Part shown: positions 17,806 through 21,173 of the stretch, piece after piece
Numbering within the stretch: the stretch's first letter is position 1
Layout of the letters: each line of letters starts with the position of its first letter
NCBI GenBank assembly: GCA_913776615.1
Contig: CAJYPK010000024.1
Location: forward strand, 1 to 64,000
DNA: 64,000 nucleotides
Reading direction: 5' to 3'
Source of the DNA: an uncultured Hymenobacter sp.
GTDB taxonomy: Bacteria > Bacteroidota > Bacteroidia > Cytophagales > Hymenobacteraceae
The notes under the pieces: generated by a model
What the model was told of the DNA's origin: nothing
What the model saw: only the letters and a program-made list of their open reading frames with translations
The model's database searches: none
Translations under genes and position numbers: made by a program

Positions 17806-17881
17806 TGTAGGGTAAGCTTTAGCTTGCCCCGCGTCAGGTTTGCATCTCCCGACCGCCGGGCAAGCTAAAGCTTACCCTACA
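17806..17881. repeat. Repeat family A, head-to-head pair
   Basis: A forward unit (17806-17833) and an inverted unit (17854-17881) are separated by 20 nt and can form a long hairpin. The inverted unit encodes Val-Gly-stop of the peroxiredoxin that reads into it. Confidence 0.9.
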
Positions 17882-18462
17882 GGACCTTCCTCCGCTTCCC
17901 AATTCGCCGGGCAGGTTTCCCCGTGCTCCTCGAAGTGACGCAACGCATCTACCATGCGCAACGCATCAGAAATACGGCGGCCCAGGAAACGGTCATTCAC
18001 AAGCTGGTGCCGCACGATGCCATCGCGGTCTATCAAAAACAAGCCCCGGTAAGCCTGGGGCGTGCCAATGAAAATCATTTCGCCAGCCTCATTGTAGTCG
18101 TAGTGGCCGGCCAGCACGTCGTAGTTAGCCGAAATAGTCTTGGTGGCATCGGCCACGAGCGGGTAGGTCACGCCCCCAATGCCGCCTTCATCGAGCGGGG
18201 TGCGTAGCCAGGCCGCGTGCGTCTGGTGCGAGTCGGTGCTGCACCCCACCACCGCCACCCCCCGGCGCTCAAACTCGGGCAGCATTTGCTGAAAGGCCAG
18301 CAGCTCGGTAGGGCAGAGGCCCGAAAAATCAGCCGGGTAAAAAAACAGCAGTACGTAGCGCTTGCCCAAATAACGGTCAAGCGAAAAATCCTCTTCTATC
18401 AGCGAGCCAATGGCCGCATAGGCCTTGAAAGACGGCGCACGTTTGCCAACGAGAACGGGCAT
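17872..18462 (-). CDS. 2-Cys peroxiredoxin (AhpC/Prx1 type)
   Basis: This 196-residue thiol peroxidase reduces H2O2 and organic peroxides. The peroxidatic Cys50 is in YPADFSGLCPTEL (family motif FxxxDFxxxCPTE). The resolving Cys lies in the C-terminal HGETCPANWEAEEG, so this is a typical 2-Cys enzyme. The STDSHQTHAAWLRTP stretch is also conserved. No signal peptide is present. The protein ends GPVG, where Val-Gly and the TAA stop are encoded by repeat family A (GTAGGGTAA). The electron donor is not encoded nearby. Confidence 0.93.
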   Translation of the reverse strand: MPVLVGKRAPSFKAYAAIGSLIEEDFSLDRYLGKRYVLLFFYPADFSGLCPTELLAFQQMLPEFERRGVAVVGCSTDSHQTHAAWLRTPLDEGGIGGVTYPLVADATKTISANYDVLAGHYDYNEAGEMIFIGTPQAYRGLFLIDRDGIVRHQLVNDRFLGRRISDALRMVDALRHFEEHGETCPANWEAEEGPVG

Positions 18463-18594: not shown

Positions 18595-19893
18595 TTATTC
18601 GCGCACCAAAAACTGAAACGTGCTACGCGTACGCTGCTCCAGCAGCAGCTCGCGCCCAGCCGTCAGCCGCTCCAAGCTCGCTGCGTCGTAGTGCTTGATG
18701 GTAAAGAGCGTCAGCGCGCTATTGTACTGCACCCGAAACTGCCCTTGCAGCAGCGCCAGCAGTCGCTGCACCCGCATCTCATTGAAATCGGTACACACCG
18801 AAAAGCTGATGGCCGAATTCTGCATCAAATTGATTTTGAGCCGCGCCTGGGCCAGCGCCCCAAAAATCACCTCCAAATTCTCCTCCGAGATGAAAGCAAA
18901 ATCCTTACTCTCAAACGACAGCAAACACTGCCCGCCCTTGCGAATAAACGCCGGCACCAGCGGCGGGTGCTGGCAGTCGTGAATGAGCGTGCCCGGCGCG
19001 CCAGGATCCAAAAACGACTTCACCCGCAGCGGAATGTGGCGGTCGGCCAGCGGCTTCAGCGTCTTGGGGTGAATGACGCTGGCCCCGTAAAAGGCCATCT
19101 CGATGGTTTCCTGGTAGCTGATTTCGGGGTAGAGCACCGTGTCGGGGAAGATTTTGGGGTCGGCGTTGAGCAAGCCCGGCACGTCCTTCCAGATAGTGAC
19201 GCTCGCGGCGCGCAGGCAGTAGGCGAAGATGGCGGCCGAGTAGTCGGAACCCTCCCGGCCGAGGGTAGTGGTGCGGTGGTCGTCTTTGACCTGGCCTGTA
19301 AATCCTTCGGTTACTAGGATGCGGGCGTTGCTATTAAAGGATAATCCTTGAACAATCTTCTCAGTTTCTTTCCAATCTACTTTACCTTCTCGCCAAGTGG
19401 AATCCGTTATAATCATCGAGCCACTATGGTAAACTTCTTCATCTAAACTGCTTGCCAACGCATAGTAGACCAAATAAGAGGAAAGTGCTTCGCCAAAGCT
19501 CACTATTTGGTCGTATCCCTCATCGTAGCTACTGTTTGGTGAGAGGTCTGCTAATCTATTCGCTAACCCTTGAAAGAGGCTTTCTAATCCAGCATCTGGT
19601 TTGTGTAATTCTACGCCAGGATGAGGTAGTGTTTTGCCTATTTCCTTACCCGCTTGTTCGTGATAAGATTGTAATGCCGTCAACTGCGCCGAGTAGTCAC
19701 GCCCGTGATACGCCAAGTCGTAAATCTCCTCCAGCGCATTTGTCGTCTTCCCCATCGCCGATACCACAATCAGCAGTGGCCCCTGCGGCCCAAAGTCGCG
19801 CACGATGCGGCAGAGGTTGAGAATCGCCGCCGCGTCCTTCACCGAGGCCCCGCCAAATTTGTAGACCTGCAAGCCCGTTAGTTCGTTTTCCAT
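18595..19893 (-). CDS. Aspartate kinase (monofunctional)
   Basis: Aspartate kinase phosphorylates L-aspartate, the first step toward Lys, Met, Thr and diaminopimelate. The 432-residue protein starts MENELTGLQVYKFGGASVKD (motif KFGGxSV). It has the active-site stretches VVSAMGKTTNALEEI, FGEALSSYL and REGSDYSAA. Two ACT-type regulatory domains at the C-terminus (FAFISEENLEVIFG ... SISFSVCTDFNE) imply feedback control. I use Met 19893, as the track start adds 28 unrelated residues. The middle third (about 19325-19680 on the plus strand) is much poorer in GC (42-47% in hand-counted 60-base lines) than its flanks (63-73%), although the frame is open throughout. This points to a mosaic allele. Confidence 0.95.
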   Translation of the reverse strand: MENELTGLQVYKFGGASVKDAAAILNLCRIVRDFGPQGPLLIVVSAMGKTTNALEEIYDLAYHGRDYSAQLTALQSYHEQAGKEIGKTLPHPGVELHKPDAGLESLFQGLANRLADLSPNSSYDEGYDQIVSFGEALSSYLVYYALASSLDEEVYHSGSMIITDSTWREGKVDWKETEKIVQGLSFNSNARILVTEGFTGQVKDDHRTTTLGREGSDYSAAIFAYCLRAASVTIWKDVPGLLNADPKIFPDTVLYPEISYQETIEMAFYGASVIHPKTLKPLADRHIPLRVKSFLDPGAPGTLIHDCQHPPLVPAFIRKGGQCLLSFESKDFAFISEENLEVIFGALAQARLKINLMQNSAISFSVCTDFNEMRVQRLLALLQGQFRVQYNSALTLFTIKHYDAASLERLTAGRELLLEQRTRSTFQFLVRE

Positions 19894-20054: not shown

Positions 20055-21068
20055 ATGGACCACAATAAGCTAGCCCTGCCCGTCGGCACCACGCTCGACC
20101 GCTTTATCATGCGCAAGCAGGAAGATTTCCCCTACGCCACCGGTGAGCTTTCGCAGCTGCTACGCGACATCGCGCTGGCCGCCAAGATTGTAAACCGCGA
20201 AATCAACCGCTCGGGTCTCATTGACATTGCCGGCGCCTATGGCAGCCGCAACGTGCAGGGCGAAGACCAGCAGAAGCTCGACGTGATTGCCAACATCCGC
20301 TTCATCCGCGCTCTGCGCAACGGCGGCGAGGTGTGCACCATCATCTCGGAGGAAGACGACGACATCATCCAGACCGGCAACAACCAGGGCAAATACGTGG
20401 TGGCCATCGACCCGCTCGATGGCTCCAGCAACATCGATGTCAACGTCAGCATCGGTACCATTTTCAGCATCTACCGCCGCATTTCGCCCACCGGCCGCGA
20501 GGGCGGCAGCGCCGACTGCCTCCAGCCCGGCACCCACCAGGTAGCGGCGGGCTACGTCATCTACGGCTCCAGCACCATGCTCGTGTACACCACCGGCAAC
20601 GGCGTCAACGGCTTCACCTACGAGCCCAGCCTGGGCGAATTCTTCCTGTCGCACCCCACCATCCAGACGCCCAAGACTGGCAAGATATACTCTATCAACG
20701 AGGGTTCGTCTGAGTCGTTTTCGCCCGGCGTGGCGGCTTTCGTACAGCAGTGCAAGGCCGAGAAGTTTTCGGCCCGCTACATCGGCTCGCTGGTGGCCGA
20801 CTTCCACCGCAACCTGCTCAAAGGCGGTATCTATATCTACCCCGCCACCGCCAAGGATACCAACGGCAAGCTGCGCCTCATGTATGAGTGCAACCCGTTG
20901 GCCTTCATCGTTGAGCAAGCCGGTGGCAAAAGCTCCAACGGCCACCTGCGCACCCTCGAAATCGAGCCCAAAACCTGCCACGAGCGCTGCCCGGTCTTCA
21001 TCGGCAGCAAAGAGCTGGTCGAGCAAGCCGAAGCCTTTCTGGCCAAAGAAAATGAGCCTGTAGGGTAA
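20055..21068 (+). CDS. fbp: Fructose-1,6-bisphosphatase class 1
   Basis: This gluconeogenic enzyme hydrolyses fructose 1,6-bisphosphate to fructose 6-phosphate. The 337-residue protein has the class 1 metal-binding motifs SEEDDDIIQ and [16 protein letters not shown], and the substrate loop [20 protein letters not shown] followed by [20 protein letters not shown]. The start at 20055 ([17 protein letters not shown]) fits the family. The track start reads through the upstream promoter. The final residues are ENEPVG: Val-Gly-stop comes from repeat family A inserted or grown at the gene end. It is divergent from aspartate kinase. The terminator after the repeat pair serves this gene. Confidence 0.96.
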
Positions 21069-21138
21069 GCTTTAGCTTACCCGGCGTCAGGTAAGCCGCA
21101 CCGCGCCTAGCGTAAGGCAAGCTAAAGCTTACCCTACA
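21059..21138. repeat. Repeat family A, head-to-head pair
   Basis: A forward unit (21059-21086) that contains the fbp stop codon and an inverted unit (21116-21138) are separated by about 30 nt, immediately followed by a rho-independent terminator. Confidence 0.9.
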
Positions 21139-21173
21139 AAAAAGCCCATCCTAACGCTAGGATGGGCTTTTTT
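21138..21173. terminator. Bidirectional hairpin terminator
   Basis: AAAAAAGCCCATCCTA, a short CGC loop and TAGGATGGGCTTTTTT lie between the convergent fbp and DUF5606 genes. Confidence 0.9.

Follow-up and report, generated by a model that had tools for sequence, protein, structure and literature searches.

A mosaic aspartate kinase gene with a hypervariable low-GC segment in Hymenobacter

The lysC Locus and Its Product

The stretch analyzed here (64,000 nucleotides, referred to below as the window) is contig 24 of a Hymenobacter-type genome of 6.08 Mb in 62 contigs (G000; contig CAJYPK010000024.1 of assembly GCA_913776615.1). It carries lysC, a gene encoding an aspartate kinase, which is a mosaic: separate parts of the gene support separate trees, and the break points between them lie in stretches of shared identity. 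The parts of the gene are listed below, where GC stands for guanine plus cytosine content, GC3 for GC at third codon positions, AU for the approximately unbiased test, and the dip group for the orthologs showing a drop in GC3 at the same codons.

18595..19893, minus strand: lysC, aspartate kinase of the monofunctional type, 432 amino acids (Pfam and NCBIfam profiles, PDB relatives)
19714..19893, minus strand: 5' flank of lysC, codons 1-60, inherited vertically (60% of the columns invariant in the dip group)
19684..19773, minus strand: 5' conserved block LLIVVSAMGKTTNALEEIYDLAYHGRDYSA, spanning codons 41-70 (inside it or just after it lie the 5' break points, which vary over codons 60-79)
19270..19683, minus strand: low-GC hypervariable exchanged segment, type A, codons ~71-208 (change points in GC3 and identity, flank versus segment trees, AU tests)
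19228..19275, minus strand: 3' conserved block RTTTLGREGSDYSAAI, codons 207-222 (contains the 3' break point, codons 207-210)
18598..19275, minus strand: 3' flank of lysC, codons 207-432, inherited vertically (62% of the columns invariant in the dip group)

In profile searches, LysC scored 131.3 bits against the Pfam family AA_kinase and 229.5 bits against TIGR00657 of NCBIfam (cut-off 208.7), and it failed the monofunctional equivalog TIGR00656 (192 bits, cut-off 402), hence the name aspartate kinase is given at the subfamily level only. Its nearest relatives in the PDB are the aspartokinases 3c1m, 2hmf, and 2j0w. The protein is an aspartate kinase at this level, and its activity is predicted from these similarities.

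A Low-GC Segment within lysC

The original prediction described a low-GC middle in lysC based on counts in 60-base lines, and these figures are exact: 42, 43, and 47% in the lines starting at 19381, 19501, and 19561, as against 73 and 63% in those at 19201 and 19801. The shift toward codons ending in A or T is likewise real, since GC3 amounts to 0.38 in codons 71-204 vs. 0.78 in the 5' flank and 0.81 in the 3' flank (Fisher p 2.3e-17 for the segment against the flanks), and the open frame and the intact catalytic motifs were both seen again. The dip is located where it had been placed, at 19321-19682, but its extent is slightly wider, from about 19683 to 19270: the GC3 change points are at 19677 and 19297 (codons 73 to 199), and the identity with the flank sister breaks at codons 71 and 208, which corresponds to about 19683 to 19270. 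The GC content of 19321-19682 is 42.8%, and only 0.05% of the 360-base tiles of the window are equally low.

In the genome of the window, the intergenic GC is 0.53 and the median GC3 of the genes is 0.78. Among the 1,111 genes scanned (1.63 Mb, about a quarter of the genome), only one other, encoding a secreted FG-GAP protein, has an internal GC3 dip as strong as that of lysC, and these two are the strongest. A gene for a secreted FG-GAP repeat protein on a contig of 4 kb from the same genome (L113, 205-3609) carries a low-GC3 stretch beside a high-GC3 C-terminal part, and is perhaps another mosaic gene. An assembly error in lysC was rejected as the origin of the dip, since independent genomes carry the same segment type and G005 and G020, both near-closed, show the pattern too.

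Distribution and Diversity of the Segment Types

The comparison set consisted of 102 distinct lysC genes, of which nearly all belong to Hymenobacter, with one genome per species. Taking a dip to be a GC3 of the same codons at least 0.15 below that of both flanks, 25 of these 102 orthologs show it, and a single recent transfer confined to the genome of the window was therefore rejected. In the alignment, the flanks are near-invariant (GKTTNALEEIYDLAY... and ...TTTLGREGSDYSAAI), while the middle sorts into at least nine types, A to I, differing in both sequence and insertions or deletions. No majority residue occurs in 56% of the segment columns of the dip group vs. 5-8% of the flank columns. 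Eighteen segment positions are nevertheless fixed in this group, including the motifs YD..YDQ....GE and T...WRE....W..T. The flank sisters L002/L034, L018/L029, and L035/L011 share 92-94% of their flank DNA and 34-42% of their segment DNA when the fitted break points are used, and the same segment type turns up again in distant species.

Segment identities far below those of the flanks were also observed in pairs of Hymenobacter species with high-GC segments and no dip, namely L053/L057 (flank 87%, segment 61%), L080/L067 (flank 83%, segment 53%), L081/L053, and L063/L075, so that the exchange extends beyond the species showing the GC dip. The lysC pairs from Pontibacter and Adhaeribacter show an ordinary pattern. 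A lysC of this type is absent from four Hymenobacter genomes (G050, G059, G062, and G083), which carry only thrA and distant kinases. Two relatives match over half of the gene only: the lysC of G757, a genome present as one contig, shows a frame-shift near the 3' end of the segment (L293, 3274-4556), and that of G065 an apparent break at about codons 174-191 (L229, C1:2304336-2305594), each of which may be either a sequencing error or a real lesion. The insertion of an element was considered in both cases and rejected, as no inserted element is present.

In G005 and G020, two near-closed genomes, 234 pairs of orthologs lying within 400 kb around lysC were scanned, with a mean protein identity of 93%. 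By far the strongest internal collapse of identity is that of lysC (0.88, 0.31, 0.94), with a score of 6.8, the next being 3.2, and its flank identity equals the ortholog average. The runners-up inspected encode Pro/Ala-rich or otherwise low-complexity proteins and were not retained as further cases; the aspartate kinase domain of ThrA was rejected as a second case, because it shows no dip and an ordinary divergence in the same genomes. Within what was scanned, the cassette pattern is special to lysC.

Conflicting Trees and Break Points

The tree of the flanks and that of the segment disagree. Type A, which carries its own insertions and deletions, occurs in three flank clades, partly beside species having the ancestral high-GC segment, and its grouping as a single clade on the flank tree was rejected (AU p 6e-114). 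Conversely, the AU tests rejected the flank sisters as clades on the segment tree, with p-values of 2e-8 for L002+L034, 1e-5 for L018+L029, 3e-5 for L007+L052, and 0.02 for L035+L011. As the groups tested were picked after viewing the alignment, these p-values are indicative, and the segment trees are based on about 130 columns. The flank tree requires at least 21 changes of segment type, and at least 11 changes between a divergent lineage (A, B, C, D, F, H, and I) and an ancestral-like one.

The conflict between the two trees points to recombination rather than fast drift. Of the 11 flank-near pairs, 10 have their 3' break point at codon 207-210, while the 5' break point varies from codon 60 to codon 79. 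Long DNA identity is present in the 3' block and in most of the 5' stretch, as expected if homologous recombination is anchored there, and homologous recombination is the route by which we infer that the segments were exchanged. In a metagenome-assembled genome (G028), position 1 of the contig C270 carrying lysC (L231) falls exactly at the 3' conserved block, as a fork in an assembly graph would, which hints weakly at several segment types within one population.

The internal replacement proposed in the original prediction is thus supported by the conflict between the trees, although not as a single event in one genome. That proposal had named the same dip in orthologs of close species, or congruent trees for all the parts, as observations speaking against a mosaic. 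The former was found, in the 25 orthologs mentioned above; the trees, on the other hand, conflict, so that the mosaic reading emerges stronger.

Constraint, Age, and Structure of the Segments

The ratio of nonsynonymous to synonymous divergence (dN/dS) within one segment type is about 0.05-0.23; all the types thus appear functional, and their copies evolve under purifying selection. Where flank sisters carry different types, the synonymous divergence (dS) of the segment is saturated while that of the flanks is 0.26-0.29, and even within types the segment dS is 1.6-4.4 times the flank dS in the dip clade. The allele lineages of the segment predate the species carrying them, a situation to which introgression would look similar.

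AlphaFold models were obtained with a mean pLDDT (predicted local distance difference test) of 88 for type A and 84 for type F, and both match E. coli aspartokinase III and the aspartate kinase of M. jannaschii with template modeling (TM) scores of about 0.7-0.8. According to these models, the aspartokinase fold is kept in both types. In the type A model, the exchanged part comprises the long helices 68-88, 101-115, and 123-149, one short helix, and two strands, and belongs to the catalytic lobe.

Explanations for the Recurrent Exchange

On balance it seems probable, if only modestly so, that the lysC cassette results from the recurrent exchange of ancient segment alleles by homologous recombination, and that their diversity is kept up by selection on the surface of the enzyme. 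In one large Hymenobacter clade, about 137 codons within the catalytic domain of lysC would form an exchangeable cassette. Incoming DNA of other strains or species would recombine by homology in the flanking conserved blocks, at codons ~60-79 and ~207-210, and the middle of the gene would be replaced by one of at least nine divergent types, the 18 key residues (including the catalytic motifs) and the fold being kept. Diversifying selection, favoring rare alleles at the surface of the catalytic lobe, would maintain these types, and the change in surface would allow the enzyme to evade a binder of aspartate kinase entering the cell, which might be a phage protein or an antibacterial toxin delivered from outside. 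Selection for rare types is suggested by the repetition of the exchange at one place in one enzyme and by the persistence of very old types, and selection therefore appears to be the cause of the repeated replacement. Escape from a binder of the catalytic lobe would be the simplest cause, given that the surface varies on a conserved fold with conserved catalytic residues. That a phage protein or a toxin acting on aspartate kinase is the selecting agent is the leading guess, made by analogy. An exchange pattern of this kind would be anticipated for a protein that is being attacked rather than for one with a housekeeping role. More tentatively, aspartate kinase may be the target, or a hijacked host factor, of a new class of phage proteins or interbacterial toxins from which Hymenobacter escapes by trading surface cassettes.

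Several points weigh against this explanation. Neither an antagonist nor a partner protein of aspartate kinase was found, and polymorphism within species, which would be the direct mark of balancing selection, lies outside the view of a set containing one genome per species. The low dN/dS within types gives no sign of an ongoing fast change in amino acids, and selection on the protein does not account for why most types are uniformly low in GC. In no pair of the dip group are the segments more alike than the flanks, and segments of the same type differ by at least 15% in DNA; since no recent transfer was caught in this group, the types must come from a large and old pool. Lastly, plasmids, phages, and viral contigs yielded no donor of the segment types, and neither did, outside Hymenobacter, about 290 genomes of the order, 396 of the phylum, and 395 of the class, which carry only ordinary aspartate kinases no nearer to the types than the ancestral Hymenobacter form is. 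The lower-GC relative originally suggested as the donor was thus not found in any of these collections. Silent cassettes or a paralog as the source were rejected as well: apart from the lysC copy itself, the genome of the window carries no second copy of the segment, but only thrA and distant kinases.

The same lack of a donor in these collections counts against a repeated introgression without selection, in which a diverse, unsampled, and AT-richer relative (AT, adenine plus thymine) would have replaced only the middle of the gene because only the two conserved blocks are identical enough. Nearly all the swapped segments are low in GC, the break points sit in the conserved blocks, and the genus is thinly sampled, all of which would suit such a process; other conserved genes having equally conserved blocks are unaffected, however, and the flanks of lysC contain further conserved blocks, yet no break points occur there. 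We consider this explanation, the main rival, unlikely, though not negligible. The low GC of the types might reflect an unsampled AT-richer pool or, as another possibility, a long stay beyond the reach of the codon selection acting on the flanks. A hypermutation in place or a relaxed constraint, with fast evolution and drift toward an AT-rich mutational equilibrium, would agree with the excess of segment dS noted above within types, and with the fact that the segment is somewhat more variable in the non-dip species too. Such a process hardly deserves credence given the strong conflict between the segment and flank trees, the occurrence of type A with its own insertions and deletions in three distant flank clades, including beside ancestral high-GC segments, the low dN/dS, from which it follows that the constraint is not relaxed, and an intergenic GC (0.53) exceeding the GC3 of the segment.

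The driver might also act at the DNA level, if a nuclease or a selfish system cut the lysC segment and if recoded or replaced segments escaped it or spread by gene conversion. The tracts resemble those of conversion in having fixed ends, and the replaced DNA differs at nearly every synonymous site; but the locus contains neither a nuclease nor a repeat, an intron, or an additional segment copy, there is no second copy elsewhere in the genome, and the amino-acid change goes far beyond what an escape from cutting would need, which makes this a very improbable account. Finally, the segment might set the feedback or the partner specificity of the enzyme and be swapped to tune metabolism, and its location in the catalytic lobe beside the substrate-binding motifs would be in line with this idea. 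The effector sites of aspartate kinases are known to lie in the C-terminal regulatory part. That part is conserved here, and at least nine types among close species far exceed what tuning would need; we find a regulatory or complex-forming change quite improbable.

Comparison with Known Systems and Implications

Core biosynthetic enzymes are usually taken to be slowly evolving, vertically inherited markers. The genes of penicillin-binding proteins are mosaic target genes produced by interspecies recombination. Mosaic alleles due to interspecies recombination have been described in Campylobacter (PMC3139442). Like these mosaic housekeeping and target genes, lysC has internal segments apparently replaced from other species by homologous recombination, with sharp ends and the frame kept. 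Those mosaics reflect a handful of recent events that drugs or introgression brought about, whereas lysC shows at least nine ancient types throughout the genus, always at the same ~137 codons, and encodes a cytosolic enzyme of amino-acid biosynthesis having no known drug.

The het genes of Aspergillus fumigatus are trans-species polymorphic and under long-term balancing selection (PMC11138114). The lysC alleles are similarly older than the species, and their diversity is confined to a narrow stretch; unlike the het genes, lysC is a bacterial core gene whose product has no known recognition role, and it was compared in one genome per species. The CdiA-CT toxin of E. coli 536 binds and requires the biosynthetic enzyme CysK (PMC5562914), and sets a precedent for a delivered toxin exploiting a cytosolic enzyme of amino-acid biosynthesis; unlike CysK, the Hymenobacter aspartate kinase has no known toxin, so that the likeness is offered as an analogy only. 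As in cassette antigenic variation and diversity-generating retroelements, a hypervariable segment lies between constant flanks, but no silent copies or template repeat occur in the genome, and the variation of lysC is between species and not programmed within a genome. The open-license literature search yielded no description of a segment exchange in the lysC of Hymenobacter.

The catalytic-lobe segment of lysC shows an antigen-like standing diversity in about 137 codons between fixed recombination anchors, and the gene is unsuitable as a phylogenetic or typing marker in Hymenobacter. Were selection by an antagonist to be the cause, the segment type would be predicted to decide the sensitivity to an intracellular agent acting on aspartate kinase, and lysC would be a bacterial analog of the trans-species polymorphic recognition loci.

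Genomic Context of lysC

Two neighbors of lysC were identified, as follows.

20055..21068, plus strand: fbp, class 1 fructose-bisphosphatase, divergent neighbor
17872..18462, minus strand: peroxiredoxin of the AhpC/TSA family, downstream neighbor

The lysC locus occupies a fixed chromosomal position, since fbp adjoins it divergently in 75 of the 76 loci; the peroxiredoxin gene lies at most 4 kb from it in 72 of the 76. No RNA family above the family threshold and no flanking repeats were found at the locus. Between fbp and a DUF5606/DUF6852 gene, at 21062-21172, where the matches to RNA families are weak and sub-threshold only, a dyad of GTAAGCTTTAGCTTAC-like repeats is followed by a strong terminator-like hairpin.
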